64,000 bases of DNA. It comes from Halobacterium litoreum (GTDB lineage Archaea > Halobacteriota > Halobacteria > Halobacteriales > Halobacteriaceae). The stretch lies in assembly GCF_021233415.1 (NCBI RefSeq), contig NZ_CP089466.1, forward strand, positions 1,240,001 through 1,304,000. The letters are read 5' to 3'. The notes beneath the pieces were generated by a model. That model was not told the origin of the DNA, did no database searches, and was given only the letters and a program-made list of their open reading frames with translations. The first letter of the stretch is position 1. Every line of letters begins with the position of its first letter. A program made the position numbers and the translations under genes. Below are positions 15,295 through 48,516 of this stretch, piece after piece.

Positions 15295-15333
15295 CTTGTT
15301 CTTGATTGGGCTTCGTACACCCCCGACAAGGGA

Positions 15334-16467: not shown

Positions 16468-17593
16468 TCGTCGGGTCTCGAAGTGCGTCTACGACGAAAT
16501 CCTGTTCATCGTCCGTCATATATGGATACATCGGAATTGATAGAATACCCTCGTACAGCGTATCCGCGTTGGTGTGCTCTCCAGCCACGTCGTTGTAGTA
16601 CGAGAGTTCGGAGATTGGTGGGTAATGAACGCCTGTGATTATCCCTCTTTCGGAGAGATAGTCGTACAACTCTGCCCGTGTCAATGGGTACTCTCCTTGG
16701 ACTTCGATCACGAAAAGGTGGAAGGCATGTTCGGTGCTTGATTCATTTTCCCCAACCCATTCGAGTCCAGGAATCTTCTGAAGGGCGTCGACGTATCGGT
16801 CTGCAACGTTCCGTCGCGATTCGTTCATTGCGGGAAGCTGCTGGAGCTGACTATTCCCGATGGTCGCCTGAATTTCACTCATTCGGAAATTGAACCCAAG
16901 GCCATCCACGTCGTAGCCCCAGTTGTCCCTCTTCTCGTCGGGGGACTTCGTCTGATGGTGATTTCTGAGCTTTCGGACGTCGGCCGCGATCTCTTCGTCG
17001 TTCGTGACGACCATCCCGCCTTCACCTGTTGTCATGTTCTTCGTCGCATAGAAACTATAGCATCCCGCATCTCCCCACGACCCGACTGGTTTTCCGTCGA
17101 GTGTGGCACCAGGCGCGTGCGCACAGTCCTCGATTACGGCTGCGTCGTGCTCTTCGGCGATGTCCGTGATTTCGGTCATGTTGGCCGGCAAGCCATACAG
17201 GTGAACCGGGATGACAACTGAGACGTCGTGTTCGTCGAGTAGCCGCTGGAGGCTCTCAGTATCCATGTTCCCATTCGAGTTCACGTCACAGAGGACTACC
17301 TCGCCATCGAGTAGTTCGACGACGTTCGCAGTGGCAGAGAAGGTCATCGCCGGAACAACCACTGTATCGCCCGCTTCCACTCCCAGAGCTCGCAGACACG
17401 CGTACAGAGCAGACGTACACGAATTTACTGCAATTCCGTGCTCGCAGCCGTGCGCTTCCGCGAAGGACTCTTCGAACGACCGCGTCTCCGGTCCGAGTGT
17501 GAGCCACCCAGACGCAATGACGTCCCCGATACCCGCGAGGACTTCGTCCCCGATAACGTTCTCGGGCTTGTACAGCGGGACTTCGTCTTCCAT
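16460..17593 (-). CDS. DegT/DnrJ/EryC1/StrS family sugar aminotransferase
   Basis: A PLP-dependent aminotransferase, 377 aa from the ATG that opens MEDEVPLYKPENVIGDEV. That start matches the family pattern (xxPLYKP near the N-terminus); an upstream in-frame ATG at 17689 would add 32 residues and overlap the NUDIX gene by 20 bp. The PLP lysine is in FYATKNMTTGEGG, and the pocket segment EDCAHAPGATLDGKPVG is intact. The likely substrate is dTDP-4-keto-6-deoxyglucose from RmlB or another keto-sugar, giving an amino sugar for the glycan. Donor and regiochemistry cannot be read. Confidence 0.9.
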   Translation of the reverse strand: MEDEVPLYKPENVIGDEVLAGIGDVIASGWLTLGPETRSFEESFAEAHGCEHGIAVNSCTSALYACLRALGVEAGDTVVVPAMTFSATANVVELLDGEVVLCDVNSNGNMDTESLQRLLDEHDVSVVIPVHLYGLPANMTEITDIAEEHDAAVIEDCAHAPGATLDGKPVGSWGDAGCYSFYATKNMTTGEGGMVVTNDEEIAADVRKLRNHHQTKSPDEKRDNWGYDVDGLGFNFRMSEIQATIGNSQLQQLPAMNESRRNVADRYVDALQKIPGLEWVGENESSTEHAFHLFVIEVQGEYPLTRAELYDYLSERGIITGVHYPPISELSYYNDVAGEHTNADTLYEGILSIPMYPYMTDDEQDFVVDALRDPTNE

Positions 17594-17669
17594 GACATAC
17601 GACGATGGGGGGATTTCAATAATGGTTTCGGAGGCCCCGCCGAGAAACCTGAAATCTGCACGTTGAATT

Positions 17670-18200
17670 TTAGATATATCCCCTTTCACGAGCCAACGTA
17701 AGCGGTGCTAAGGTCCATCCAGTCGCTGGTTGGGAAGCTGCGATGTCCAATGCTCGGTCAACAGAGACATATCGCCAGTCTATATACTCTGAGTCTTCAG
17801 GTGTAGATTGTCCCTCGGATAATCCTTCTGCAACAATTATCGAACGCTTATACCGTGCCGTTGCCGTTGGGTAGTACGTAGATAGGTGGAAGAATTCACT
17901 TGCCGATATCCCGGTCTCCTCACGTAATTCACGCTTGGCTGCCTCAATGTGCGACTCTTCCTCTTCCACGTGTCCTCCTGGACACTCTGTGAATTTCTGT
18001 TTTAATTTGGGGCGATACTGTTCTACCATTACAACTTTTCCGTCTGAAACTGCTACGACAGCGATTGCATCTTTCGGGCGGTCAACCCAGTAATAATCTT
18101 TGACTTCGCCGTCGGGATTTCTCACTTGATCTGACCCAACAGAGAACCACGGACACTCGAATTTTGTATCTTGACTAAGTGTCTGCCAGTTTTCTCCCAT
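17670..18200 (-). CDS. NUDIX hydrolase, ADP-ribose-pyrophosphatase-like
   Basis: A 176-aa protein with a perfect Nudix box, GGHVEEEE, then KRELREETGI (GX5EX7REUXEEXGU). Upstream is the strand WVDRPKDAIAVVAVSDGKVVMVEQYR, typical of ADP-ribose and nucleotide-sugar pyrophosphatases. Within the sugar-nucleotide operon it may clean up or balance nucleoside-diphosphate sugars. It sits between the aminotransferase and epimerase genes on the same strand with short gaps. Substrate is inferred only. Confidence 0.88.
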   Translation of the reverse strand: MGENWQTLSQDTKFECPWFSVGSDQVRNPDGEVKDYYWVDRPKDAIAVVAVSDGKVVMVEQYRPKLKQKFTECPGGHVEEEESHIEAAKRELREETGISASEFFHLSTYYPTATARYKRSIIVAEGLSEGQSTPEDSEYIDWRYVSVDRALDIAASQPATGWTLAPLTLARERGYI

Positions 18201-18237
18201 GAAATTGTGCTATTCCGGCCCAGCTATATTACTACAC

Positions 18238-19227
18238 TCAAATCTCGTCGTATATCTCATCCATGTTGTCAATACAACGGTTGAGTGAATCGTCTAATTT
18301 GACCTTTGGGTCCCAGCCGAAGTCTGCGTTCGCTTTATTAACGTGGGGAACTCGCTTCTTCACGTCGTCGTCATATATTGGAACGTAATCGAATTCTAGT
18401 TCTTCACCTCTAACAATTCCGTGATCCCTTCCTTTCGCGAAAATTCGACGAGCAAGTTCTTTCATAGTTACTGGCTCAGGATTTGCCAGATTGTACGTCT
18501 CGTTTGTCGTTGCATCTGCAAACGACTGGTTAGCAATTGCTTCTGCAACCTCATTGATCCACGTGAAGCAACGGACCTGCTCTCCGTCACCGAAGATTTC
18601 CATTGGGTTCTGCTTCTCGACGAGTATCTTCCGCAAAAAGTCGGCGAAGACGTGGCTAATCCCTGCTTCGTCCTCACTCTTCTCGTAAGGGGTGATTATA
18701 TTGAATGGCCTCCAGATTGTGTATTCGATACCATATTGTTCTTCAAACGCCATACTAAGACGTTCTCCTACAACCTTCGAGAGCCCGTAGTCAGTTGAGG
18801 GGACTCGGCTTTTCCACACATCCGCCTCATTGTGAGGCGGTTCATCTTGCTCATATACCATCGACGAGGACAGATACGCTACACGCGACACATCGTGCTT
18901 CTTTGCTGCTTCCAGAATGTTTCGGTGGATGACTACGTCGTTGGAAAGAATATCTGCGGGATATTCATGGAACCCTTTGACACCATATATTAACGCAGCT
19001 GCGTTGATGACCCCGTCTACATCACTTACGAGATCCATCACTCGATCATGTTCTGTTAGATCAGCTTTGTGGAATTCGTATTCCTCCGGGTCAACCACTC
19101 GGGTGTGGTTGTAGTCGTCGTATCTAGCGTGGTTATCCACGCCAACCACCTCATGATCGTTTTGCAGTAGGTGTTTGATAGTCCACTGCATTAGCGATCC
19201 CTCACTACCGGTTACCAGAATTCTCAT
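18238..19227 (-). CDS. NAD-dependent epimerase/dehydratase (extended SDR)
   Basis: A 329-aa extended SDR of the nucleotide-sugar type. The NAD motif is TGSEGSLMQ (an altered GxxGxxG, with Leu-Met in the third position), and the catalytic YGLSK is present. SSSMVYEQ supplies the Ser. The C-terminal region (IFGDGEQVRCFTWINEVAEAI) binds the sugar nucleotide as in 4-epimerases. It starts 4 bp inside the dehydrogenase gene (ATGA-type overlap). It may be a UDP-GlcNAc or UDP-uronate epimerase; which one cannot be fixed. Confidence 0.87.
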   Translation of the reverse strand: MRILVTGSEGSLMQWTIKHLLQNDHEVVGVDNHARYDDYNHTRVVDPEEYEFHKADLTEHDRVMDLVSDVDGVINAAALIYGVKGFHEYPADILSNDVVIHRNILEAAKKHDVSRVAYLSSSMVYEQDEPPHNEADVWKSRVPSTDYGLSKVVGERLSMAFEEQYGIEYTIWRPFNIITPYEKSEDEAGISHVFADFLRKILVEKQNPMEIFGDGEQVRCFTWINEVAEAIANQSFADATTNETYNLANPEPVTMKELARRIFAKGRDHGIVRGEELEFDYVPIYDDDVKKRVPHVNKANADFGWDPKVKLDDSLNRCIDNMDEIYDEI

Positions 19228-20510
19228 AGACTCACCTCGGTTTCACCGCTGAGCTCGTCGTCCAATTCCCGCCCCACAAAGTAGCCGTTGTCAGATTGGT
19301 ATCTGGCAGCATCCCAGACACCCCAGATATCACAGTAAAGACAGTCATCGTTATTGACACGGCGTTGAATCGAATCGAAATCTTCGAACTCTGTGTGTGG
19401 CGTCATGAGAATCACCCAGTCGCTTTGCTCGATGTCTTCCAAATCGTCGTAACCGGGAACATTCGGTTCCACTTCGACGACATTTCGATACCCCTTCATC
19501 TGGAGTTGTTTCTCCATTTTGAATGAGACAGAGTTCCGGACGTCGTCGGAATCTCTTTTGAAAGTCATTCCAAGAACTGAAATTTTAGACGGGTCGGGGG
19601 ACTTCTCGGCCATTCTTTTTATGATCTGGGCGGGCATCCCTTCGTTGATCTGGTAGGCAGTTGAAACAAGTTCGTTAAATGGGATATTATCGACTAGGAA
19701 CCACCCGTCCTTCGTCAGGCATGGCCCACCGACGTTGGCGCCTGGAGATGGGACATCAAACCGGGGATAGTTCTTACCAGTTTTATCCAGAATCTTGTTT
19801 ACGTTGACGTTGTGGTGTGTGGCGAAGGATTCCGTGATTAGGTGGAATTCATTCGCTGCGGCGAACGTTAGGTACCGCCACATGTTCGTAAACAGTTTGC
19901 CGAGTTCTGCCTCGGTTGGATTCAATCTGAGGCAGTCCTCTTCAAGAATACTATTGAATACCTCCGCGGTACGCTCGTAGCTGTCGTCGTCTGGCGCACC
20001 GATAAGTTGTGGGAGACCAACAATCTCTTCAAACGCTTTGTGTTGTGCTATTCGCTCTGGGGCAAACGAGACGTAGACGTCCTCTCCGACCGTAAATCCT
20101 CGTTCTTCTAGGGTTTCACAGACGAGTTCTGTCGTGCCCGGATAGATTGTCGAACGGAAAATTAGCAACTGGTTGTCGCTGAGGTTTGGAATCACCTCGT
20201 TTACGACATCTAACAGAACGTCCATCTGTGGATTATGGTGTTCGTCGATGGGGGTACCAATGACGAACATGATGACATCGCAATTTTCAGCTGTCTCAAT
20301 TTCAGTAGTCGTATCTAAGCGACCGGAGGCCAGTACAGTTTCGAGCATCTCCTCGCCTCCTGGCTCATTGAACGGCAGTTCTCCACTTTCGACCGTTTGC
20401 AGTCTAGTCTCATCCTTGTCAATGAGTGTTACTGAGAAGCCAGCATCGGCGAGTACTATACCTAAGGGCAGACCAACATGGCCTCCACCACCGATGATTC
20501 CAATCCGCAT
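19224..20510 (-). CDS. UDP-N-acetylmannosaminuronate-type nucleotide-sugar dehydrogenase
   Basis: A 428-aa three-domain dehydrogenase from the ATG opening MRIGIIGGGGHVGLPLG. The longer reading from 20528 adds only MHQHGC, and the upstream TATA-like ctatgataagg fits the shorter start better. The catalytic Cys is in GANVGGPCLTKDGW. The segment FAPERIAQHKAFEEI resembles WecC and related UDP-ManNAc dehydrogenases more than UDP-glucose dehydrogenase. It oxidises C6 twice with NAD+ to a uronic acid. A second, UDP-glucose-type dehydrogenase is at 36,439. Confidence 0.9.
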   Translation of the reverse strand: MRIGIIGGGGHVGLPLGIVLADAGFSVTLIDKDETRLQTVESGELPFNEPGGEEMLETVLASGRLDTTTEIETAENCDVIMFVIGTPIDEHHNPQMDVLLDVVNEVIPNLSDNQLLIFRSTIYPGTTELVCETLEERGFTVGEDVYVSFAPERIAQHKAFEEIVGLPQLIGAPDDDSYERTAEVFNSILEEDCLRLNPTEAELGKLFTNMWRYLTFAAANEFHLITESFATHHNVNVNKILDKTGKNYPRFDVPSPGANVGGPCLTKDGWFLVDNIPFNELVSTAYQINEGMPAQIIKRMAEKSPDPSKISVLGMTFKRDSDDVRNSVSFKMEKQLQMKGYRNVVEVEPNVPGYDDLEDIEQSDWVILMTPHTEFEDFDSIQRRVNNDDCLYCDIWGVWDAARYQSDNGYFVGRELDDELSGETEVSL

Positions 20511-20857
20511 ACATCCATGCTGATGCACGTCCCTATTAGCCTTATCATAGCTTTTGTCCGAAGAACGTACCAGTAAATCTGCAGTCAGTCAGAACCAGAC
20601 TTCACACCTTGATATCCTGGAACCGGTGATGAGTTTGTTCTTGAACCCCTATCTCATGCGCTCCGAAATTTCCCAAATTGAAATTCTAAACCCTCCAAAT
20701 TTTATATATGTGTTTCGAGTGTAATGAAGCTCGAATTGCGCCACTAATAGCCCTCACTCTGGAAAAATTATCCACGCCTCACAAAGTGTGCAGCTAACTC
20801 GATCTGCATCAGCGGCCTGTCCAGACGAACCGCCGGTAGTATAGAAGTGACAATCGA
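20511..20857. other. 347-bp intergenic region
   Basis: AT-rich. It contains the promoter of the dehydrogenase gene (about 20535-20550) and a run ttttatatatgtg near 20700. No open frame with a recognisable product, no tRNA and no repeat is seen. The stretch downstream of the FkbM gene may carry its transcription end. Confidence 0.45.
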
Positions 20858-21640
20858 TTAGTCTATTGATAATTGTGCTCTAATATGTGTACAAGATGGG
20901 TGTTGATTCTTGCCGTTCTCCACTACTTCAACGACATCGTATCCCTTACTATTTAGAATGTCCACTACTTCACTATGATTATTGTGCGTCTCGACAAGTA
21001 AAACCGATGGTTTGACATCCATCTTCTGTAAAATTGCAGTTTCTGCGCCTTCACAGTCCATTTCATAAACATCAGCGTGGGGCAGTTTGCTTGCCGGGAC
21101 TCTATTCACATCAGATGGTGGATTCTGAGTGAAATTTGACCCGGCCACTTCACCCACCGCTGCCAACTCTATGTCGACTTTATCGGTACAATCATTTAAT
21201 TCAATTGTCTGACTCAATATCTCATATGTTTGCTTGGATTGTTCAAATGCAGTTACTTTGCTATCCGTCACTTTGCTTGCAACTACTGCTGTAACACCGA
21301 GCCCGCCACCAATGACAACTACCTCGTCACCCTTCTCAGCATAGGATTTAAGCGACTCAACCTCAGTATATTCATATTCTGGATCATTTTCTGTTGGATA
21401 TGCCGGTTCATAGTATGGAGAATACACATCGAGCAAATTAATATTTACTGGCACGACAACGTCATTTAGTTCCAGTTGTCGCGATTTATCCGGCGTGAAA
21501 CGTTTTAAAGAATTTACTACTTTTGTATAATTCGAGTGTGTTTTGTTTCGGATATACGATTGAATACTGTTTAGTAGACTTATCAAACCCTCTTCGGAGT
21601 AAATCTCCCAAACCCTGGTTGGTAGAGACTGTCCTGGCAT
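20858..21640 (-). CDS. FkbM family methyltransferase
   Basis: A 260-aa SAM-dependent methyltransferase. The glycine-rich motif EVVVIGGGLGVTAVVASK appears near residue 105, and the FkbM hallmark DVYEMDCEGAETAILQKM near residue 190. Such enzymes O-methylate sugars or polyketides; in this island a methylated sugar of the surface glycan is the likely product. Its coding sequence is the most AT-rich of the island, suggesting separate acquisition. A TATA-like taagtatgcg lies 24-32 nt upstream of the ATG. Confidence 0.82.
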   Translation of the reverse strand: MPGQSLPTRVWEIYSEEGLISLLNSIQSYIRNKTHSNYTKVVNSLKRFTPDKSRQLELNDVVVPVNINLLDVYSPYYEPAYPTENDPEYEYTEVESLKSYAEKGDEVVVIGGGLGVTAVVASKVTDSKVTAFEQSKQTYEILSQTIELNDCTDKVDIELAAVGEVAGSNFTQNPPSDVNRVPASKLPHADVYEMDCEGAETAILQKMDVKPSVLLVETHNNHSEVVDILNSKGYDVVEVVENGKNQHPSCTHIRAQLSID

Positions 21641-22071
21641 AATTATCCATTAGCCCCTATCGCATACTTAGTGATGTTGAAAATCACATTTAATGGATTG
21701 TCTCCTGAATCCTGTAATCAGAAGCCCAGTCGTTCACAAATTCACACCCAATCCCTTTTGAAGACCCACGCGAATGAACCCCATTCTCTTAACAAAACTG
21801 GGGCGATTAAATTTCAAGGATGATGAGGAACTTGCTGAGAGTATTAGTTCAATCTACGCACTCATCTAACTCCCGCACCTAAGATGTGATTCTCGAGAGA
21901 ACGATTCTAAGTTTGTAACTGTCTCTCCCGGAATATTCGTGAATAGAAGTGCCTTATTTAATCCGGCCAAGAATGTCGATATGGGTACTACTTTGACAGG
22001 AAACCCTGTGGGATAGTAGAATCTTCCATCAGGACTGTGAAGTACCCCACAGAAGGTGTCATAACTCGGAC
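21641..22071. other. 431-bp AT-rich region without a convincing gene
   Basis: This gap lies between the FkbM gene and the frameshifted glycosyltransferase. A plus-strand frame of 31 codons (21774-21869) is open but matches nothing I know, and it lies next to a CCCCA/TGGGG hairpin. It could be debris of an insertion sequence or of another island gene. No intact transposase or terminal repeats are visible. Confidence 0.45.
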
Positions 22072-23219
22072 TCAGTCGTCGGCATTCCCGAGAAATCTAT
22101 CCGCTGCAATCTCTGGTTCCATAAATTCATCATAGACCTCTCCTGCCTGATCTCCAATACTGCCTTCCTTTTCCATTTCGTAGAACTGTCCAATTCGGTC
22201 TGACACCATTGTTCTATCTTCAAGTAAAACCGCCGTCTCCCCGTCTTCGAATAGCTCGCAAATTGCAGGCGAGTCTACACTCAGCATGGGCTTCGAGAAA
22301 TACGCGGCTTCTGCAGCCTTGTTTCCAATACCAATATCTCCGTGAGGGTTGTGGACTAACCGATTACTAACTAGGTCTGCAGCATCAATGTAGGCCAAAA
22401 GCGTCTTATTGTCTACAAACCCCTCGAATTTGACGTTATCTAGTGATTTTCGTTTTGCGTCCTCCATGATTTCTGTCCGGCTCCCACCATCACCGAGAAA
22501 GACGAACTCTTTATCAGGATGAGATTCGGCAGCAGAGAGAAGTTCTGAAACGCCATGGAAGTTGATATAGTTCCCCCAGTACAGAATATTCACGTCAACG
22601 TTACTGTCATTATTACCTCCTTCCCGGCTTGCAAATCGATCTTCATCTACCCCGCAGTAAATTGTTACAGCATTTTCCATCGGTAAGTCGAAAGCATCGG
22701 CAAACTCCTCAGTCATCGCATCCGTTAGAGAAATGTATTTGTTTGCTACTTTGATCGCCAGTTTATCTAGCTTGAAATAGAGTCGAGCGGCGGGGGAGTT
22801 CTGGGCTACTAGTTGTCTACCAAGAACGTTCGGGTAGTACAAACCACCGTGCGAATCAAAGTAGAGGGGGAGTCAAGAACAATTGCCAATATCTTCATTG
22901 AAAATACACTGTAATCTGAAGCGTTTGCCGCGAAGAGGATATCTGCGTCTTTGAGAGTTCGCAGGTGTAAAGCGGAGTAAAGGAGTGCTAGGGTATTCTC
23001 TATCAATATGAGTGCGACGAGGAATACCCAGAGTAGATACCCGTCGAATCGGTCGGACAGATTTCGCTGTCTTCGACGAGTGAAAAGACTGGGCGATTGA
23101 ACTTTCTGAACTGTGTGCCCCCTCCGCCTGAGTCCCTCTTCAATTACGTCATCACGATTTGACCAACCAGGAAAAGAACCGACAAATGCGATTCTACGTT
23201 TGGCGTTTGAGCTCCCCAT
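22072..23219 (-). pseudogene. Glycosyltransferase family 4, split by a frameshift
   Basis: Two overlapping frames together make one GT4 protein of about 383 residues. The N-terminal frame (23219 to 22809) starts RRIAFVGSFPGWSNRDDVIEEGLRR and reads correctly to AIVLDSP. The C-terminal frame (from about 22865 to 22072) continues LYFDSHGGLYYPNVLGR and holds the donor-binding domain (ILYWGNY, FLGDGG, GIGNKAAEAAYFSKPML). Adding one C to the run of five C (minus strand, 22866-22870) joins them perfectly as DSPLYFDSHGG. So it is either a recent pseudogene, a sequencing error or a phase-variable gene. Downstream sequence shows no further decay. Confidence 0.85.
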
Positions 23220-23326
23220 ATCTAACTCACTGCTTGAGACATCGATACTTCAATTCTTTTGTTGAACTTGATTTCACCACGGAATTGTAGTTCCGAGTGT
23301 GACCTGAGCGGAGCAACCACGGGTTG

Positions 23327-23338
23327 TTAAATATTTAG
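23327..23338 (+). promoter_or_regulatory. TATA element deciding the start of the phosphodiesterase gene
   Basis: The sequence ttaaatatttag is a strong archaeal TATA box. Transcription would begin near 23358-23362, exactly where the conserved N-terminus (ITTIVLGIDG) starts, implying a leaderless mRNA beginning at an ATT or ATC codon. Confidence 0.6.
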
Positions 23339-23360
23339 ACCGTTAAAGTCGCTCAGAGGG

Positions 23361-24896
23361 ATTACTATCACTACAATCGTCCTCGGTATCGATGGTACGA
23401 CTTGGACGCTCTTGGATCGATGGCTGGACGATCTTCCTACGCTCTCCGGGATTGTTGAGAATGGTACATCCAGCGAACTCGAAAGCTCAACCCCGCCAGT
23501 CACTAGTCCTGCCTGGCGGTGCTACGGGACCGGAAAGAACCCCGACGACATCGGTGTCTACTGGTGGCGACAACTCGACCGGGAGACAAACGAGTTCGTC
23601 GGGGCCGACCAGTTGCCGCTCACCGACGAGTGTTACTGGGAGCGACTGTCCGACGCCGGGTACCAGGTTGCGGTCATGGGCGTTCCGCTTAACTCTCCGC
23701 CCCAAGCGGTTGATGGACACTTCGTGAGCGGCGGACCCTTCGCCGACCCAGACAACTACACGTATCCAGAGTCCCTGTCGGACACTCTGGAGAGTGAGTT
23801 CGATTACCAGCTCCATCCGAAGGAGTACCCGTCTGTCGAGAACGCAACTGACTCAGAGATCGTAGCCGATTTCGAGGCGATGATCGAACAGCGCTTCGAC
23901 GTTGCGGAGTGGCTGCTGGAAGAGCACGACCCTGACTTCCTCAATCTCACCCTCTTCTACATCAACGTCATGCAGCACAAGGCGTGGGATGCACCGGAAG
24001 TGAAGGGCCTCTGGAAAGTTATCGACGAGCGAATCGGCGAGTTGGTCGATAGTGACGACAACCTCATTATTCATTCCGACCACGGGCTGCACGAGGTCGA
24101 GCGGGTTTTCTATCTCAACGCGTGGCTCGAACAACAGGGGTATCTTTCGGTTACCGCTCCCGAGGATGACCGCTCAGTTGTGGACTACGTCAAAAGTGTA
24201 ACCGATGCCCTTGGAATCTCAGAGCAGGTCGGTCGCGTTCTTCCAGAATTTATTCGCCAACGTGTCGGTTCTGGTCGTCGATTGCTTGACTCGGGGGAAT
24301 ACGAGTCCAGAATCGATTTCGACGAATCCCGTGCCGTAGCACTTCCACAGGGGCCTGTGTACTTGCTGGATGATGATCCGTCATTTGCAGATGCACTCAC
24401 TAATGAACTACTTGCGGTGGAAGACCCCAAAACGGGCAGACGGGCTCTGGAGGACATCGTGCCTGCCTCAGACGTGTACGGTGACCCAGTTGGGGAGAAT
24501 GCCCCCGACCTGCTGGTCCGATGGAACGACGGCTTCGAGGTCAAGAACCAACACTCTGAAGACGAAAAACAGGTGTGGGGTTCGCCGCACGGTGTCCTCG
24601 CGGACAACGCCCAGCAGGGAGTGGTAATCGCGGAAGGACCTAGCTTTGGTTCCAGTGACGATGTGAAAACGCCTTACCTTACCGATATAGCACCCACTGT
24701 CCTTCACTTATTTGGGGAGCCGATTCCTGAGGGATTCTCTGGTTCTGTGGCCATGGATCTGTTTGCACCGGGGTCAGAACCTGCGAACAAGGAGGTTTCG
24801 TACACTACGGCAACCATGTCTGGACGAAGCAACGGCCACGAAGATGCTACTCAGGACGTAAACGATCGGCTCCAAGATCTCGGATACCTCGAGTAA
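23361..24896 (+). CDS. Alkaline phosphatase superfamily protein (type I phosphodiesterase-like)
   Basis: A protein of about 511 residues. The metal-binding N-terminus GIDGTTWTLLDRWLDDLPTL is in frame from 23361 but no ATG, GTG or TTG precedes it; the nearest, a TTG at 23412, would cut this motif off. I therefore place the start at the ATT at 23361 (or ATC at 23367), supported by the TATA box 24-35 nt upstream. The nucleophile region is STPPVTSPAWRCYGTGKNP (Thr or Ser), and HSDHG supplies metal ligands. It may be a phosphodiesterase, phosphotransferase or sulfatase acting on the glycan. The tail RLQDLGYLE matches two other island enzymes. Confidence 0.8.
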   Translation: MTITTIVLGIDGTTWTLLDRWLDDLPTLSGIVENGTSSELESSTPPVTSPAWRCYGTGKNPDDIGVYWWRQLDRETNEFVGADQLPLTDECYWERLSDAGYQVAVMGVPLNSPPQAVDGHFVSGGPFADPDNYTYPESLSDTLESEFDYQLHPKEYPSVENATDSEIVADFEAMIEQRFDVAEWLLEEHDPDFLNLTLFYINVMQHKAWDAPEVKGLWKVIDERIGELVDSDDNLIIHSDHGLHEVERVFYLNAWLEQQGYLSVTAPEDDRSVVDYVKSVTDALGISEQVGRVLPEFIRQRVGSGRRLLDSGEYESRIDFDESRAVALPQGPVYLLDDDPSFADALTNELLAVEDPKTGRRALEDIVPASDVYGDPVGENAPDLLVRWNDGFEVKNQHSEDEKQVWGSPHGVLADNAQQGVVIAEGPSFGSSDDVKTPYLTDIAPTVLHLFGEPIPEGFSGSVAMDLFAPGSEPANKEVSYTTATMSGRSNGHEDATQDVNDRLQDLGYLE

Positions 24897-25011
24897 CGCG
24901 GCTATTTTCGTTGCGACGACCCGACGCTTATTTCGTTGCCTCCTGACCTAATTCGTGTTTTCAGGCGTCTTTCTTGATAGTGTTGGCGTACATAGACAAT
25001 ACACGACAAAA

Positions 25012-25020
25012 CTTTATTCC
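25012..25020 (+). promoter_or_regulatory. TATA element for the sulfatase-like gene at 25044
   Basis: ctttattcc lies 24-32 nt upstream of the ATG, consistent with a leaderless transcript. Confidence 0.5.
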
Positions 25021-25043
25021 GGTGTTGCTAGTAGATATCTACT

Positions 25044-26480
25044 ATGAGTGAAACGACTCGCCCTCCGAACATTCTACTAGTCGTTTTAGATTCAGCGCGC
25101 GCCCGGAATTTTGGAATTTACGGACACGACCGTGAAACGACGCCGTTTTTATCGGAGTTCGAGAAGGAGTCAGTAAAGTTTACGTCTGCGTGGTCTCCCG
25201 GTGTTTGGACACTTCCGAGTCACGTGAGTATGCTCTCTGGGTACGACGTTGCTGAGCACGGTGTTACTAGTACCGAAGACAGCATCAATCCTCAGGAGAC
25301 AGTATTTCACAAGCTATCGGAGCGGGGATACGATACTGGTGTTTTCTCTGAGAACACCTGGCTGACAGAGGCGGAGGTCGGCCTCAAGCACTCCTTCGAC
25401 ACCGTTCGTGGGAAGCCGAGTGTGATTTATCCGAGTGGATTGAATCCAGGTGAATTCGCACACAGAAACGAGTACGGCGATTACCTCGCATTCATCCGTG
25501 AATCGTTATCGCACGATGCGCCGTTGAAGTCTCTTCTTAATGGCGTCGCAGCGAAAGTTCAGTACGACTTCCCAGAGCGTGTTTCGAACTGGCTCCTCGC
25601 TGAACCAACTGGAGAGTACTACGTTGATTCCTTCCTTAAGTGGTCTCGCGACTCTTCTGGCCCATGGGCAGGATGTATCAACCTCATGGACGCTCACCGC
25701 CCATATGTTCCATCGGCAGATATGGACCTGTGGAGTGATTCTACGGCTTGGGAAGTACAGAAATCGCTCTCAGACCCCGTATGGCCGTTCCTTCGAGAGG
25801 ATGAGCCCCTGTGGAAATTACGGGAACTTGAGGACCTGTACGACGGCGGAATTCGGCAATGCGACCACGCAATAAAGCGCTTAATTCACGGTCTCAAGGA
25901 ACGGGACGCACTTGAAGATACATTTGTCATCATTACTGGCGACCACGGGGAAGGATTCGGGGAGGACAGTTTTCTCCGTCCTGACGAACCTGTCGTAGAG
26001 CACAAAGCAGGTATCCATCCAGTCCAGACAAATGTCCCCCTTCTAGTCCGAACTCCCTCCAAACAGAGTGGTTCGGTAACGAATCCAGTTTCACTCACTC
26101 GAATTCACGATGTGATTCTATCGATGGTCTCTGAGGACTTCGAACCGACAGATTTCAGCGCTGAGACTGGAGCACGTATCAGCTATACGGGCGGAGCCGC
26201 CCAACAAATCGATTCACAGACAGACGGTGAAGAACCTACTGCGAACTGCGTCGTCCAGCAAATCGGCGACAAGGTCGTGAAACTCACAGAGTGGGGCGAC
26301 AGCGAAGCGTCGGTCTCAATTGAAGACGCCCAAGTAGCCACTCCGAACGACGAATACGAGATAGAGCCTCGAGTTTCAGCGGCTTTCTCGACTCTGCGGA
26401 CCCCCGATATTCGTGAAGATCGAACTGAGCCAATTGAGCCCGGTGTAAAGGACCGCCTCGAGGAATTGGGTTATCGGTGA
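25044..26480 (+). CDS. Sulfatase-like alkaline phosphatase superfamily protein
   Basis: A 478-aa protein with the sulfatase-fold start PNILLVVLDSARARNFGIYG and the active-site segment WTLPSHVSMLSG. The position that is Cys or Ser in formylglycine sulfatases (C/S-x-P-x-R) reads Thr-Leu-Pro-Ser-His here, so hydrolysis or transfer through a Thr nucleophile, as in phosphoethanolamine or phosphoglycerol transferases, is a better guess than true sulfatase activity. ITGDHGEGFGED gives the second metal site. There is no signal peptide, so it may act in the cytoplasm. It is convergent with the flippase gene. The tail RLEELGYR is shared with two neighbours. Confidence 0.88.
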   Translation: MSETTRPPNILLVVLDSARARNFGIYGHDRETTPFLSEFEKESVKFTSAWSPGVWTLPSHVSMLSGYDVAEHGVTSTEDSINPQETVFHKLSERGYDTGVFSENTWLTEAEVGLKHSFDTVRGKPSVIYPSGLNPGEFAHRNEYGDYLAFIRESLSHDAPLKSLLNGVAAKVQYDFPERVSNWLLAEPTGEYYVDSFLKWSRDSSGPWAGCINLMDAHRPYVPSADMDLWSDSTAWEVQKSLSDPVWPFLREDEPLWKLRELEDLYDGGIRQCDHAIKRLIHGLKERDALEDTFVIITGDHGEGFGEDSFLRPDEPVVEHKAGIHPVQTNVPLLVRTPSKQSGSVTNPVSLTRIHDVILSMVSEDFEPTDFSAETGARISYTGGAAQQIDSQTDGEEPTANCVVQQIGDKVVKLTEWGDSEASVSIEDAQVATPNDEYEIEPRVSAAFSTLRTPDIREDRTEPIEPGVKDRLEELGYR

Positions 26481-26485
26481 CGAAC

Positions 26486-27928
26486 TCAGGGGACGTTTAA
26501 CCGCTTTAGAACTGTATTCGCGATTCGACGTCCCTCTTTGCTGATTGTGAGTAGTACCAGTCCATACGATGCTGCTCCAGCCCCAACGATGAACAACAGC
26601 GACATCCACGACGATATAGCCGTCTCTCGTAGCAGTACCCAAACCATCACAGCCATCACTGTAGACGCTACGAGTTGGTGGCCGATGAACCGCCAGGAAA
26701 GGTCGGTTACCGAAGCAACACTTGTATTTAGGTAATAGAGAGAGATTACTGAGCGGAGTGCGTGAGAGCCGACGAGGCAGTAGAGGAAAAGGGACTCCCA
26801 ATCCAATGTAAGTGTAACTGCAAACAGTGGGACTGCTACGGCCGTGGTTAGTATACTTGACTTTGCGACTAAATCGGGGTAGTTCGACCCAGCAAGGGAG
26901 CTGGTGAGTATTTTTGTAAGTGCTTGGAATACGAATGCCGCTGCGACAGCAGCCAAGATGTATCCCGAATCAGCATACTGTGCACCGTATACTGTTACCA
27001 TTACTTCGTCCCCAAGCACGAGAGCTCCGGCAGTCAATGGAGTCGCGAACAGAATGGCGACATCTACACCGTTCTGGATCGCTTGGACCGGATTGTTGCC
27101 TCGCTCGATACTGGCACTCACCTGCACGAAGATTGACTCGATAACGCTTCTCACTGGAATACGAGCCGGTTCAATCAGGTTCTTGGCCGACTTGATGTAG
27201 GATGCCAACGTCGGTGAGAATAATAGCCCTGGAAGAACGACCACTGAATTCTCCAGAATCTCGTTTCCCAGGCGAGAGAGGAGAGACCAGCCCGAGAAAT
27301 TGCGGACGTCGTCAAAGGTGGACCATCTCGGTGGTTGCGTCGGAATTTCGAACCGTCGGAGGTACGCGGTCAAACCAACGAGCAAGCCAGAGAGCGCAGC
27401 ACTATAGATTAATCCCGCAGCACCCATCCCAAATCCAAGAATGAACAGGAATCGAAGTACAGCAGTGAGTAGTCCGTCAGCGAAATCGAGGCCGGCTGCT
27501 GTCCCCGTGGATCCGACTCCATCGAAGATGCGCTCAACGTGGAAAAGGAACGTTCGACCGAGCAGATGCGCGATTCCAGCAACCGCAAGTGGTTCAAACG
27601 GTAGTTCAGTAACTGACCCCAGCCAAAAGACTGCCGCGCCACATAGGGCTGCGTATCCCACTATGAAGATAGCTCCGAATGTGAAAAATCGCTCGTAGTC
27701 GCTCGTATCTTCACTGATCCGTTTTCGGATCGCAATCGCGATCGCGTTCGGAGCACTCCCCAATATGAGACTGATTCCGATTAGGGTGTACGCTGTGCCA
27801 AAACTGCTAGTTGAAAAGTAGTTCGCGAAGTAGACGAATGCGACAAATGCAGCTATCTTGTCCAGACTGTCCCAGAGAAAGGTGAACAGCGCCTCGCGAG
27901 TTAGATCCACCTCTGCAGGGGTTTTCAT
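26486..27928 (-). CDS. Oligosaccharide flippase / polysaccharide biosynthesis protein
   Basis: A 480-aa membrane protein with 12-14 hydrophobic helices and the MATE-like exporter pattern of Wzx-type flippases (FLWDSLDKIAAFVAFVYFANYFSTSSFG at the N-terminus). It is the only such protein in the island and probably moves a lipid-linked glycan or part of it to the outer face, ahead of AglB. Known haloarchaeal relatives include AglR, though I cannot assign orthology. Its stop is 6 bp from the convergent sulfatase-like gene. Confidence 0.85.
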   Translation of the reverse strand: MKTPAEVDLTREALFTFLWDSLDKIAAFVAFVYFANYFSTSSFGTAYTLIGISLILGSAPNAIAIAIRKRISEDTSDYERFFTFGAIFIVGYAALCGAAVFWLGSVTELPFEPLAVAGIAHLLGRTFLFHVERIFDGVGSTGTAAGLDFADGLLTAVLRFLFILGFGMGAAGLIYSAALSGLLVGLTAYLRRFEIPTQPPRWSTFDDVRNFSGWSLLSRLGNEILENSVVVLPGLLFSPTLASYIKSAKNLIEPARIPVRSVIESIFVQVSASIERGNNPVQAIQNGVDVAILFATPLTAGALVLGDEVMVTVYGAQYADSGYILAAVAAAFVFQALTKILTSSLAGSNYPDLVAKSSILTTAVAVPLFAVTLTLDWESLFLYCLVGSHALRSVISLYYLNTSVASVTDLSWRFIGHQLVASTVMAVMVWVLLRETAISSWMSLLFIVGAGAASYGLVLLTISKEGRRIANTVLKRLNVP

Positions 27929-27998
27929 CGAGTCCCTCCTGAGTGGCGAATTAGTCCAAAATCTGCACCTGAGCCGCAGTTAATCAGTTCTCTTCGAG

Positions 27999-28928
27999 TC
28001 ATGCCCTGAAGCTTCGTTTCGTATCTAACAACCGATCATACGCGTCAATCCCAAGAATAGACACCAAGAGATACATGATGAGCTTCGGTTCGAAGGGATA
28101 TTCGAGGATTGCGTTCGCGAAATACCGCCTGGCAATCGCCGAGTTCCGATTCACGAGTGCAGCATCCCCGACTTCCATTCGTAGTCTAGCGAGCGCCCGC
28201 CGTCGGAATACCGCCCCATATTCACTCGCCTGCGCTTCGATGAGCGATTCGAAGAACGGATACGTCGTCTCGAGGAGCGTGTCGAGGTTCTTGCTGATTT
28301 GGTCGTCTTTTCCGGAGCGCTTGACCGTCAGGTGTTCGTGTACTGCTTTGAAGCCGTAGTGGTCTGCAACGCGGAGGTAGAACTCCCAGTCCTGCCAACT
28401 CGGCAGGTCTCGCTTCAAATCACCAACAGTTTCGAATACCTCGGTTTTCACGACGATACTCGAGAACGTCCCCACATAGTCACCGAGGAGGAGTCGACGT
28501 TTCGGATTGTCGGGTGCCGCCGTAGAGACCTTGTCGATGGTTGCGCCATCGAAGTCCTGAATTTCGATCGCCGTGTGGACGAGGCCACAGTTCTCTGGTG
28601 CATCGTCGAACGCTTCGAGTTGCCGTTCCAGTTTGTCTGGCTTCCAGTAGTCGTCTGCATCCAGGAACGCGACGAATTCTCCCTCCGCTAACTCGATTCC
28701 CTTGTTCCTAGCTGCGTTCGCCCCCTGGTTCTCCTCAAAACAGTAATACTGGACGGTCTCGTATTCGTCGAGCAGTCGTTCGGTACCGTCAGTCGATGCG
28801 TCATCCACGACGACGACTTCGATGTCTTCGTAGGTTTGAGCGAGAACGCTGTCGATTGCTTTGCCGAGTACGTCTGCCCGGTTGTACGTCGGGATGACGA
28901 CGCTCACGGTTCCGGGGGCAGTCATCAT
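27999..28928 (-). CDS. Family 2 glycosyltransferase
   Basis: A 309-aa GT-A enzyme: TVSVVIPTYNRADVLGKAIDSVL, VVVDDASTDGTERLL and the metal-binding FLDADDYWKPDKL. No membrane helices are evident except a short hydrophobic stretch at the C-terminus (LIMYLLVSILGI). It likely adds one sugar to the lipid carrier. The start may be the first or second of two consecutive ATGs. It is flanked by the flippase and the nucleotidyltransferase on the same strand. Confidence 0.9.
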   Translation of the reverse strand: MMTAPGTVSVVIPTYNRADVLGKAIDSVLAQTYEDIEVVVVDDASTDGTERLLDEYETVQYYCFEENQGANAARNKGIELAEGEFVAFLDADDYWKPDKLERQLEAFDDAPENCGLVHTAIEIQDFDGATIDKVSTAAPDNPKRRLLLGDYVGTFSSIVVKTEVFETVGDLKRDLPSWQDWEFYLRVADHYGFKAVHEHLTVKRSGKDDQISKNLDTLLETTYPFFESLIEAQASEYGAVFRRRALARLRMEVGDAALVNRNSAIARRYFANAILEYPFEPKLIMYLLVSILGIDAYDRLLDTKRSFRA

Positions 28929-28986
28929 TTTCGACTCGGAGGGTGAATGATAAAACGATACTGCTCTGGTTGCGGCGTCGCGCCGG

Positions 28987-29706
28987 TCAGGTGGACTCTT
29001 CGCGGAGACGTTGCTCAGCCCGGTCGCGGTCTTCAGGATAGCCCACGTCGATTCGCCATCCTTCCATTTGAATTGCGTCTATCGTGCGGCCGCTCTCGAT
29101 GAGCAAGTCAATGGCTTCGGAGAGCTCGTACTCGCCACGACTCGACGGTTGGACCAGATGGCAGGCGTGGAAGATTGCGGGAGTGAAGGTATAGAACCCC
29201 GTCATGACCAGATTCGACGGTGGATCATCTGGTTTCTCGACGACGTTCACGATTTCGCCGTCGTGGTTGGTGTCACACACTCCATACCGGGACGCTTCTT
29301 CTCGAGGAACCTCCTCTACGAGAAACGCGGCGTCCGTGTGCTGGGATTGTTGTCGCTCAACCACTTCACCGAGGTTCGCATCGAAAACGTTGTCGCCGAG
29401 CATCAACACGAAATCATCATCGACGTGGTCTTCGACAGTGACCAGTGCGTGAGCGAGTCCGTTCTGCTCTCGTTGGTGAGCGTACGTGATTGGAATCCCC
29501 CGAAACTCATCACCGAAGTGACCGATAATGTTCTCTTTCCGGTAGCCGACGACGACAATGATTTCATCGATGCCAATTCCCTCCAACTGCTCGAAGACGT
29601 GTGTTAGAATCGGCAGACCGTCGACTTTGACCATCCCTTTCGGCTTATCGTCTGTGAGGGGGCGGAGTCGAGTGCCTTCTCCCGCAGCGAGAACGACGGC
29701 TTGCAT
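28987..29706 (-). CDS. Sugar-1-phosphate nucleotidyltransferase, short form (AglF-like)
   Basis: A 239-aa enzyme with VLAAGEGTRLRPLTDDKPKGMVKVDG, LGDNVF and EKPDDPPSN motifs. It lacks the beta-helix domain found in the rmlA product at 14221. Short enzymes of this type supply UDP-glucose or similar donors for haloarchaeal N-glycosylation. It is probably co-transcribed with the GT2 gene 58 bp downstream. Nucleotide preference cannot be read from sequence. Confidence 0.86.
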   Translation of the reverse strand: MQAVVLAAGEGTRLRPLTDDKPKGMVKVDGLPILTHVFEQLEGIGIDEIIVVVGYRKENIIGHFGDEFRGIPITYAHQREQNGLAHALVTVEDHVDDDFVLMLGDNVFDANLGEVVERQQSQHTDAAFLVEEVPREEASRYGVCDTNHDGEIVNVVEKPDDPPSNLVMTGFYTFTPAIFHACHLVQPSSRGEYELSEAIDLLIESGRTIDAIQMEGWRIDVGYPEDRDRAEQRLREEST

Positions 29707-29940
29707 TATTCGGTGGGAGTTGATGGGGCGGCAAATAGGTTTGGTGTGGTCAGTCTATCTCACCATCGGCTCACTCATATTCGTCGTAACGCTGGGCATG
29801 TGCCGAGCAGAGACATTTTGTAGAGGCCTGTCGAACGTTGTGGCAACGATGGGATTCGTGAAGGAGATGAAGTATAAAGTGGTTGTTGGTTTGGCTGCCC
29901 CGGGGGCTTCTTTAATTCGATTAGCCGTGCCAAAACACCA
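29707..29940. other. Divergent intergenic region
   Basis: This 234-bp gap separates the minus-strand nucleotidyltransferase from the plus-strand gene at 29941. A TATA element (tttaattc, 29911-29918) lies 23-30 nt upstream of the plus-strand ATG. Small open frames in both directions show no recognisable product. Confidence 0.5.
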
Positions 29941-30888
29941 ATGACTAACGAGGAGACCGTCTTCGCAATCACGGCAGACCAAGGTGCATTTGGCAACCAA
30001 GCACTCGCTCTTGCCCGTTCTATTCAGACGCACCATCCTGATGCGGGAATCGTAGTATTCGTTCCCGAAACGGGTGCACGACACATGTCTAGTGGTTTAT
30101 TGGAGGGTTTGGGGGAGATTGCAACGGTAGAAATTGGCCCGTATCCTGACCCCGAGTACCCCATATCAGCCCAACTTCGGGCATTCGAACTCGCTGCAGA
30201 ACGTAGCGGAGTAGAGCGAGCGGTCATGCTCGATACCGACATCATTCTGTTGGATAGCCTCACTTTCTCTGCAGATGACGCTGCACTGAGCGCTCGTCCA
30301 TGCACACTTCGTGGGTCATTCTGGACGAACAATGTATCAATTCCCGTTTGGGAGACATTGTACGAGCGCTACGGATTTGATGAGCCCACTCGTCGCGTGT
30401 CGTCAGTGCTCGGCGGTGAGTTACCGTATCCGTTCTACAACTCGGCGGTTGTCGTTGCGCACGATCTCTCGATACCCAAACGACTTCTGGACGTGACTAT
30501 GGATATTCGGTCCGAAAACAGTAATAACATCGTTGAGTCGGCAGGGAATGAAACCCCGCTGTTCTACAGTGATCAAGTTGCACTGTCACTGCTCGCACAG
30601 GAGTACCCGTTCACACAACTTCTGCTAAAGAACAATTACCCAGTCACGGCGTTTCTTCGGATTCCGTCGTCTGTTGCAGGCCTCCACTATGGCGATCGGA
30701 AACTCCTCAGTACCGCTCTACCTCAGACAGAGTGGGATGAGTACGCCGAGTTGCTGGAACTCGAGTCGGATACAAAAAATTGGATGCGGCGAGCATTGAG
30801 TGTAGGTTGGTTTCGCGTGGCAAACCGTATTCCGTACCGCTTCCAGACGTTTCTCCGTCGCGTAGCAAACTCTCGGCACGCGCCCTAA
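29941..30888 (+). CDS. GT-A fold glycosyltransferase (nucleotide-diphospho-sugar transferase type)
   Basis: A 315-aa protein. The N-terminal TVFAITADQGAFGNQALALARSIQTHHPDAGIVVFV and the metal-binding motif AVMLDTDIILLD (DxD) match the GT8-like or nucleotide-diphospho-sugar transferase fold. The middle contains GGELPYPFYNSAVVV, reminiscent of GT8 acceptor loops. No membrane segments are seen. It is convergent with the neighbour, whose stop abuts its own (30888/30889). Donor and acceptor are unknown. Confidence 0.75.
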   Translation: MTNEETVFAITADQGAFGNQALALARSIQTHHPDAGIVVFVPETGARHMSSGLLEGLGEIATVEIGPYPDPEYPISAQLRAFELAAERSGVERAVMLDTDIILLDSLTFSADDAALSARPCTLRGSFWTNNVSIPVWETLYERYGFDEPTRRVSSVLGGELPYPFYNSAVVVAHDLSIPKRLLDVTMDIRSENSNNIVESAGNETPLFYSDQVALSLLAQEYPFTQLLLKNNYPVTAFLRIPSSVAGLHYGDRKLLSTALPQTEWDEYAELLELESDTKNWMRRALSVGWFRVANRIPYRFQTFLRRVANSRHAP

Positions 30889-46713: not shown

Positions 46714-47121
46714 TCAGACGCCCGGTACGCCGAGCGCGTCGAAACTCGCGACGCCCAACACCGCGAGCACGTACAACACCACGAGTGACGCCAGCCAGGC
46801 CACGAGCGCGACGAGAATCGCGTTCACCCAGCCGCCGGGATACCGGCTGTTGATGACCCAGACGTACGCCGCGAGCGTCAACAGCGCGCCGAGGAACGGA
46901 ATCCACCCGAGCAGGAAGCCGACGACTGCCCAGACGATTGCGCCGATGAGTGCCGTGACGACGGCGTGCCCGAAGTCGTCCACGTCCGCGACGACGCGGC
47001 CGCCGACGTAGATGCCGAACGCACCGACGAGCAGGCTCACCGCGAACACGACCAGCGAATCGAGGAAGCCCACCGGCTCCTGTTGGGCGAGTGCGGCGGC
47101 GAGAACCTCGGGGAGTGTCAT
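46714..47121 (-). CDS. Haloarchaeal membrane protein of unknown function
   Basis: A 135-aa protein with four helices (LVVFAVSLLVGAFGIYVGGRVV, AVVTALIGAIVWAVVGFLLGW, FLGALLTLAAYVWVINS and AILVALVAWLASLVVLYVLAVLGV). Gly-Tyr and Trp-Val repeats recur. It is the neighbour of the CopD-like gene on the same strand (40 bp apart), perhaps co-transcribed. No family can be named. Confidence 0.7.
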   Translation of the reverse strand: MTLPEVLAAALAQQEPVGFLDSLVVFAVSLLVGAFGIYVGGRVVADVDDFGHAVVTALIGAIVWAVVGFLLGWIPFLGALLTLAAYVWVINSRYPGGWVNAILVALVAWLASLVVLYVLAVLGVASFDALGVPGV

Positions 47122-47184
47122 ACCCGGAGTTCGCGGGCGACGGCCTTTGCAATGGAGTGCTTAGATGGACTCGGAACCGGCTAA

Positions 47185-47649
47185 CTAGCGGTTACTGTTT
47201 TTTGCCACGGATTCTGATTCGACTCGGTATTCCTTGTTAAGAACTACGAACAGGTTTAGTCCGAGAACAAGCGAGCAGATGAACGCCACGAGCATTCCAA
47301 CGGAAAGACTCAGCTGGGGGAGCAAAGGGGTAGCCAATCGGTTTGTGATAATCCCTGTCGCGGTGCCTACAGAAACTGCAAGTACAGCCGTAGTTACGTA
47401 TTGTACGAACTGCAGGCTTTCGTCGGTCTCGGCGAGGTATCGTTCGAAATCGAACCGATCTGGCAGGGACTGAATCCCAATTCTCACCATGTAGACTGGC
47501 GCAAGTGCGCTGGCGAATAGGACAACCACGGAACTACTGAGGGCACTCTGGGAGGCAATTACGGCACCCGCTCCAAGTCCCGCAAACCAGAGTACAATAA
47601 CACTAACTACCGTCACCACTCGCTCCTTCACGTCGAATGATTCCAGCAT
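47185..47649 (-). CDS. Four-helix membrane protein paired with the exported protein
   Basis: A 154-aa membrane protein: helices at about 11-31, 34-54, 87-107 and 117-137, with the loop GIQSLPDRFDFERYLAETDESLQF between two and three. It starts 3 nt after the stop of the upstream exported-protein gene, so the two are co-transcribed and the encoded functions probably belong together. It is AT-richer than either flank. It might be an immunity or transport partner of the exported protein; that is inference from the arrangement alone. Confidence 0.72.
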   Translation of the reverse strand: MLESFDVKERVVTVVSVIVLWFAGLGAGAVIASQSALSSSVVVLFASALAPVYMVRIGIQSLPDRFDFERYLAETDESLQFVQYVTTAVLAVSVGTATGIITNRLATPLLPQLSLSVGMLVAFICSLVLGLNLFVVLNKEYRVESESVAKNSNR

Positions 47650-47652
47650 CTA

Positions 47653-48384
47653 TTACGCAGTAAGAACTAGTGTGCCTGCGACCCCAGGGCCAAATGTAGC
47701 CGCCGCGACCAACAACAATCCACCGCCTACGACAAGCGCCTTCTTCTCGTTGTTTGCAACCCAATTCGTGACATCAGTTGCTAATGACTCGATTGGTCCT
47801 TCGTAGTTCTGTGGTTCCTCTATAAGATTCGCTCGACGTGTCTTCATGTCACATTGGAATTTCTTCGCATACCCACTTGATTCATTGCCACCCCAGAGGC
47901 AGCCAGTGTTCATATTCACCCCCATCCACATATCGAAGCTCACGCCTGAGCTGAAGTCATGCAGAGTTGCTGTGGTGTAGTTTAGTGTAGGTGTATGGCC
48001 GCTTGGACAACTCACGCAGGGCTGTTGTCCAATACTGAAGGTTTCGCCCAAGCCCTGCACGCAAGCTTCCTGATTCTCTGTGGTGTAACAAAGATCAATT
48101 GGATAACTTCCAGGATTGTCCGCGTTTATGACCAGATTCAATGAATCTTCAGCTTCCTCTCGGTGGGCAATCCACTCGGAATCTGTATCAAACCCGTATT
48201 CCATACTTGGTCCAGGTACGTGCTTGTCTGGATCTGGGTTAGGAATAGATTGGTCTGGTGAGCCAGTCACGGAACCAACTGCACCAACGCTCAAGCCGGA
48301 ACCAACTGCTGCTCCTAAACCGAGCTTCTTCAGAAGTGTTCTTCGTTTACTCTGCGAACGTGTCTGTCTGTTGTCTTTAGACAT
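47653..48384 (-). CDS. Tat-exported Cys-containing protein with hydrophobic C-terminal tail
   Basis: A 243-aa protein. The N-terminus (SQSKRRTLLKKLGLGAAVG) is a twin-arginine signal peptide with KRRTLLKK, followed by a Ser/Pro-rich segment. The middle contains six Cys residues (DLCYTTENQEAC, QQPCVSCPSG, NTGCLWGG and FQCDM), likely disulfides in an extracytoplasmic protein. The C-terminus is a hydrophobic segment (KALVVGGGLLLVAAATFGPG) capable of inserting into a membrane. The Tat leader plus the hydrophobic end recall secreted halocin precursors by layout, but no family match can be claimed. It is followed 3 nt later by a membrane-protein gene. Confidence 0.72.
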   Translation of the reverse strand: MSKDNRQTRSQSKRRTLLKKLGLGAAVGSGLSVGAVGSVTGSPDQSIPNPDPDKHVPGPSMEYGFDTDSEWIAHREEAEDSLNLVINADNPGSYPIDLCYTTENQEACVQGLGETFSIGQQPCVSCPSGHTPTLNYTTATLHDFSSGVSFDMWMGVNMNTGCLWGGNESSGYAKKFQCDMKTRRANLIEEPQNYEGPIESLATDVTNWVANNEKKALVVGGGLLLVAAATFGPGVAGTLVLTA

Positions 48385-48516
48385 ATATACAGAATGCAGA
48401 TGGGTGATTATAAATATATTTTAGAATGTTTAATTAAAATATTCTAATATATTATAAATATGAAGGTCCAATCTAGTGAGGGCACGCTTAAGGCCCGCCC
48501 GCCACTCTCGTCGGGC
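48385..48516. promoter_or_regulatory. AT-rich divergent promoter region with a long dyad
   Basis: This 132-bp gap separates the minus-strand exported-protein gene from plus-strand hisC. On the minus strand a TATA-like ttataaatata (about 48408-48418) lies 24-34 nt upstream of the start codon at 48384. An imperfect inverted repeat (arms 48413-48427 and 48441-48453) spans its centre. The hisC TATA (cttaagg, 48487-48493) is separate. Confidence 0.55.

Follow-up and report, generated by a model that had tools for sequence, protein, structure and literature searches.

A putative toxin-immunity gene pair gained beside hisC in Halobacterium litoreum, and its polymorphic haloarchaeal relatives

Halocins C8 and H4 carry a Tat-type leader, and the HalC8 peptide itself is rich in cysteines; for halocin H4, a membrane gene dedicated to immunity is not known to us. 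Pore-forming colicins are exported killers whose C-terminus forms a hydrophobic hairpin, with a small immunity protein of three to four transmembrane segments encoded next to them, and a 2019 survey by Makarova is said to cover archaeal polymorphic toxin systems and candidate archaeocins. Both halocins act through C-terminal fragments after proteolysis (PMC12893001). For halocin H4, which has been speculated to perforate the cell surface (PMC6759562), the halolysin HlyR4 releases the antimicrobial C-terminal fragment of the exported precursor (PMC12893001), while work cited in that same article presents halocin C8 as an exported haloarchaeal precursor with a bioactive C-terminal fragment, and the title of Sun 2005, also cited there, ascribes the toxin HalC8 and the immunity protein HalI to one gene. 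Archaeal polymorphic toxin systems, as outlined in PMC8416519, consist of a variable secreted protein and dedicated neighbouring immunity proteins, DNase and RNase domains being given in that outline as the commonest ones.

The window, i.e. the whole stretch of 64,000 nucleotides of the Halobacterium litoreum chromosome that was analysed, contains a two-gene unit, P1 and P2, that we read, with somewhat more confidence than doubt, as a toxin-immunity pair acquired by horizontal transfer and belonging to a polymorphic family of haloarchaea. Its features are the following:

47653..48384, minus strand: P1, candidate exported toxin, 243 aa (ORF, translation, homologues with the same architecture)
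48262..48384, minus strand: Tat leader of P1, about residues 1-41, SKRRTLLKKLGLG..., without a lipobox cysteine (sequence)
47845..48114, minus strand: cysteine/W-G core of P1, residues ~91-180 (alignment columns of 26 members)
47656..47745, minus strand: hydrophobic C-terminal tail of P1, residues ~214-243, uncharged from 216
47185..47649, minus strand: P2, small multi-helix membrane protein, candidate immunity protein, 154 aa (ORF)
48408..48414, minus strand: TATA-like TTTATAA, centred at -27 from the P1 ATG, leaderless-type promoter
48416..48452, no strand assigned: imperfect inverted repeat with 16-nt arms, possible operator, immediately upstream of the TATA-like box
47158..48476, no strand assigned: gained segment, approximate, ~1.3 kb, with P2, P1 and promoter (flanks compared with the empty sites of G027 and G056)

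A sequence-only reading of this DNA had described a Tat leader, six cysteines and a hydrophobic C-terminus in P1, all of which are seen in the translation, as well as the two-gene layout, in which P2 indeed starts 3 nt downstream of P1 on the same strand. The leader shows the Tat motif KRRTLLKK followed by a long uncharged stretch, and weak NCBIfam Tat-signal matches were obtained for P1 and for other members of its family; the six cysteines would form disulfides, and a 28-residue uncharged hydrophobic run reaches the C-terminus. P2 had been called a four-helix membrane protein, of which the membrane location holds and the helix number is plausible rather than proven, three hydrophobic segments being found in a Kyte-Doolittle scan and four helices (7-34, 39-60, 68-101, 115-152) in a low-confidence model. 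AlphaFold confidence was low both for P2 with one relative (pLDDT 48.8) and for P1 alone (pLDDT 39.5). Six P2 homologues keep the motifs FD(F/Y) and N..Y.

The GC content is 0.50 in P1, 0.52 in P2 and 0.22 in the promoter region, and 0.68 and 0.71 in the flanking genes, so that the unit is AT-richer than both flanks (~50% GC against ~70%), as had been noticed from the sequence. The AT-rich promoter with a long dyad proposed at the same time was also borne out: the region has 22% GC, the arms of the dyad (48416-48431 and 48437-48452) are complementary at 14/16 positions, and its score was equalled in 2/500 dinucleotide shuffles; as a fold the dyad is not unusual (z = -1.3). The position of the TATA-like box, 27 nt before the start codon, suggests that the P1 transcript is leaderless. 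Another part of the window, 15000-30000, is AT-rich too (40-58% GC, lowest near 20500-21600) and contains ORFs that by eye were named glycosyltransferase-, nucleotide-sugar dehydrogenase-, epimerase- and sulfatase-like; it is probably a horizontally acquired surface glycan cluster.

Neither P1 nor P2 reaches any cut-off in Pfam or NCBIfam. When 26 members of the P1 family were compared with these two collections, only generic Tat models and one marginal DUF match were found; no chain of the PDB matched the family, and a PHROGs scan of P1, P2 and their relatives gave nothing useful. Weak matches of single members to ELAPOR1, aldolase, formate_TAT and SLATT were rejected, as they lay below cut-off or covered the leader only. 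A homologue with a known role, which would have spoken against a toxin, was not found in these scans for P1, P2 or their relatives. The earlier statement that there is no recognisable family stands for Pfam, NCBIfam and PHROGs but not beyond them, since many uncatalogued relatives exist: profile searches detected P1 relatives that share the core, beyond the leader, in at least 33 haloarchaeal genomes; most further matches in the profile lists share the Tat leader only. The family is thus absent by name from Pfam, NCBIfam, PHROGs and PDB, and may be listed in the 2019 survey of archaeal toxins. No P1 relatives were found in viral contigs, and a plasmid search gave no match for P1 or for L012 (the G066 member). 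When a genome collection was scanned with P1, none of the relatives turned up bore a name.

Clustering of 34 collected P1 proteins at 40% identity rendered 23 clusters. The 26-member alignment shows no variation at W153, G155 and G166 and next to none at C99, C108 and C126. An additional N-terminal region, missing from P1, is present in some members, and it is only in this region and in the partner that the kind of sequence varies within the family. Exchangeable toxin domains behind a conserved delivery region were not found, the cysteine core being homologous throughout and followed by the hydrophobic tail, and the DNase and RNase domains of archaeal polymorphic toxin systems were not found in the P1 family either; what does match those systems is the neighbouring-gene layout and the diversity of partners, with a candidate immunity role for the latter. 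The Tat-type leader, kept in the P1-family alignments, is common to P1 and the halocins broadly. P1 resembles halocin H4 in being exported with such a leader, a likeness drawn from the description of H4. In contrast to the cysteine-rich peptide of halocin C8, the last 60 residues of P1, and those of most of its relatives, are free of cysteine, and a separate membrane gene, a candidate for the immunity role, follows P1 in most clusters. One locus (L056, 1516-3246, in G008) has two P1-like cores in tandem, separated by a six-helix membrane gene.

The tails are uncharged over 25-48 residues in most members, and in some the uncharged run reaches the length of a hairpin (35-48 residues), that of P1 being 28. 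Lysine or arginine is usual at the cytoplasmic end of a membrane anchor; neither follows the hydrophobic tail in 29 of the 34 family members. Such tails, together with small multi-helix partners, recall pore-forming colicins and their immunity proteins, although no sequence relation to colicins was found, P1 is Tat-exported and much smaller, and the membrane-active element would have to be built from its tail alone.

A partner was defined as a multi-helix membrane ORF of up to 400 aa on the same strand and no more than 180 nt downstream. Such partners follow P1 in 16/23 clusters, compared with 12/37 control Tat proteins (Fisher p = 0.008), and with partners limited to 180 aa the figures are 12/23 and 9/37 (p = 0.05). 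The controls are Tat-only loci weakly similar to the same profile, some of which resemble similar two-gene units, and they often have membrane neighbours as well, so that the enrichment is moderate and the contrast conservative but modest. In several control loci (L164, L156/L059, L158, L121 and L150) a small AT-rich membrane gene follows the Tat-exported protein; these may represent further toxin-immunity-like families. The 30 partner proteins fall into 14 sequence families at E < 1e-3, some of which might still share a very remote kinship. Only 10 changes, the fewest possible, are needed to place partner type on the P1 tree, a value as low as this was not reached in any of 200 shuffles, and near-copies contribute to this agreement. 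One clade (L055, L057, L134, L143) lacks a neighbouring membrane gene; L058 and L045 do have one, but on the upstream side. The partners in L009, L010, L012 and L041 are larger (222-376 aa; seven hydrophobic segments at most) and by eye resemble degenerate M48-type membrane proteases without the zinc motif, a resemblance for which Pfam gave no supporting match.

In G411, G301 and the plasmid phalar01 of the halophilic archaeon DL31, a stop or frame break divides P1 beside an intact small membrane gene, and the G163 genome has the same split; a broken P1 beside an intact partner is as expected if immunity is kept after loss of the toxin. The phalar01 partner is identical to that on the Halorubrum lacusprofundi plasmid pR1SE2, and IS transposases lie nearby. 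Both plasmids (phalar01: L178, CP002989.1; pR1SE2: L180, NZ_KX906370.1) thus have a P1-family gene and a partner in common, with the P1 gene split in DL31.

The window genome has 2.7 Mb and belongs to the genus of Halobacterium salinarum. All 13 Halobacterium genomes have hisC, but only in the window genome does P1 lie beside it; P2 is missing at this site in 10/13, and these lack P1 too. In two sister species with the uninterrupted arrangement (G027 and G056), the neighbouring membrane gene (window 46714-47121) adjoins hisC without any insert. A P2 homologue alone is found upstream of hisC in H. salinarum DSM 3754 (G064, NZ_VRYN01000004.1) and in G113, in line with the orphan immunity genes of polymorphic toxin systems. 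These orphans are 35-39% identical to P2 and host-like in composition (0.69 GC), and that of H. salinarum has a similar TATA-like box at about -27 from its start. An orphan P2 at the same locus without P1 is what the retention of an immunity gene would leave behind. The pair could also be ancestral and have been lost in most Halobacterium species; a sporadic gain beside hisC is favoured because the copy in the window has a low GC content. A prophage or transposon as carrier of the pair was considered and rejected, no such gene lying between the flanks.

Outside the genus, homologues of P1 (30% identity over 234 residues, E = 2e-28) and P2 (25% identity, E = 5e-6) are adjacent in G130, from another family of the order, among neighbours unrelated to those of the window pair, and in G049 two P2 homologues lie in tandem behind one of P1, again with other neighbours. 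The convincing P2 matches in 392 genomes of the order amount to three P1-linked loci and the two orphans. Adjacency in two other genera with different neighbours agrees with the expectation, set out with the sequence-only reading, that the genes of such a pair are kept together; genes commonly found apart had been named there as an argument against it, and the two species with an orphan P2 at hisC depart from it.

The pairing across genera, the polymorphism of the partners and the decayed P1 copies support the toxin-immunity interpretation put forward in the sequence-only reading, and on these comparative grounds we lean, if only slightly, towards P1 and P2 being a toxin and its immunity protein in the general sense. 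The moderate enrichment, the partnerless clade, the upstream membrane genes of L058 and L045 and a hydrophobic C-terminus that might equally be an anchor speak against a toxin. In the main rival, compatible with the layout alone, P1 would be a surface protein anchored by its C-terminal tail (a receptor, adhesin or self-recognition factor) and P2 its partner in a stable complex, with no toxin involved. Anchoring of a Tat-exported folded domain through a single hydrophobic segment at the C-terminus is known, a complex would also agree with the co-variation of P1 and partner, and membrane genes are common beside other Tat proteins (12/37); nevertheless, we consider such a complex unlikely, as 29/34 tails have no lysine or arginine after the hydrophobic run, the partners are unrelated between subfamilies, P2 persists without P1 in two species, and P1 copies decay beside partners that stay intact. 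One exported family with unrelated partners that track the P1 tree, and with decayed P1 copies, is easier to reconcile with a toxin and its immunity protein than with transport or anchoring. An export, processing or maturation role of P2, which had also been raised from the sequence and would leave P1 a toxin or not, agrees with the immediate adjacency of the genes (3 nt), but a factor that matures a single family would be expected to be conserved, whereas there are 14 partner families; with an orphan P2 in existence and export already provided by the Tat leader, this role appears improbable.

As to how a toxin might act, the tail and partner features, taken with the C-terminal fragments of halocins H4 and C8, lead us to favour a membrane-active, halocin-like exported toxin with P2 as its immunity protein; by analogy with these systems, membrane damage as the specific mechanism is put forward tentatively, as something we find plausible but would not count on. 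P1 would fold in the cytoplasm before Tat export. Its release, perhaps preceded by proteolysis as in halocins H4 and C8, would follow, and the cysteine core could bind the envelope of a related haloarchaeon, whose membrane the uncharged C-terminal tail would enter, depolarising that cell. P2, translated from the P1 transcript, would reside in the membrane of the producer and block the P1 tail. It could also be the case that the toxin takes a non-membrane route, towards the S-layer or, after uptake, an intracellular target, with P2 sequestering it. Conservation in the family resides in the cysteine core and not in the tail sequence, which agrees with such a route, but multi-helix membrane partners best fit a membrane target and the tails are consistently long and uncharged, so that we hold it to be a slight chance.

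Few halocins have known genes, and dedicated archaeal immunity proteins have barely been described. It is conceivable, though we would sooner bet against it, that the P1 family represents a large uncatalogued class of haloarchaeal membrane toxins, with one cysteine core and tail, an unrelated immunity partner in each subfamily and spread across genera, in which loss of the toxin would leave resistant lineages with orphan immunity genes, e.g. H. salinarum. The family brings many toxin-immunity candidates under a single scheme. It includes natural strains with orphan immunity (H. salinarum) as well as hosts amenable to genetics, and it would make the specificity of killing and protection among haloarchaea directly testable.
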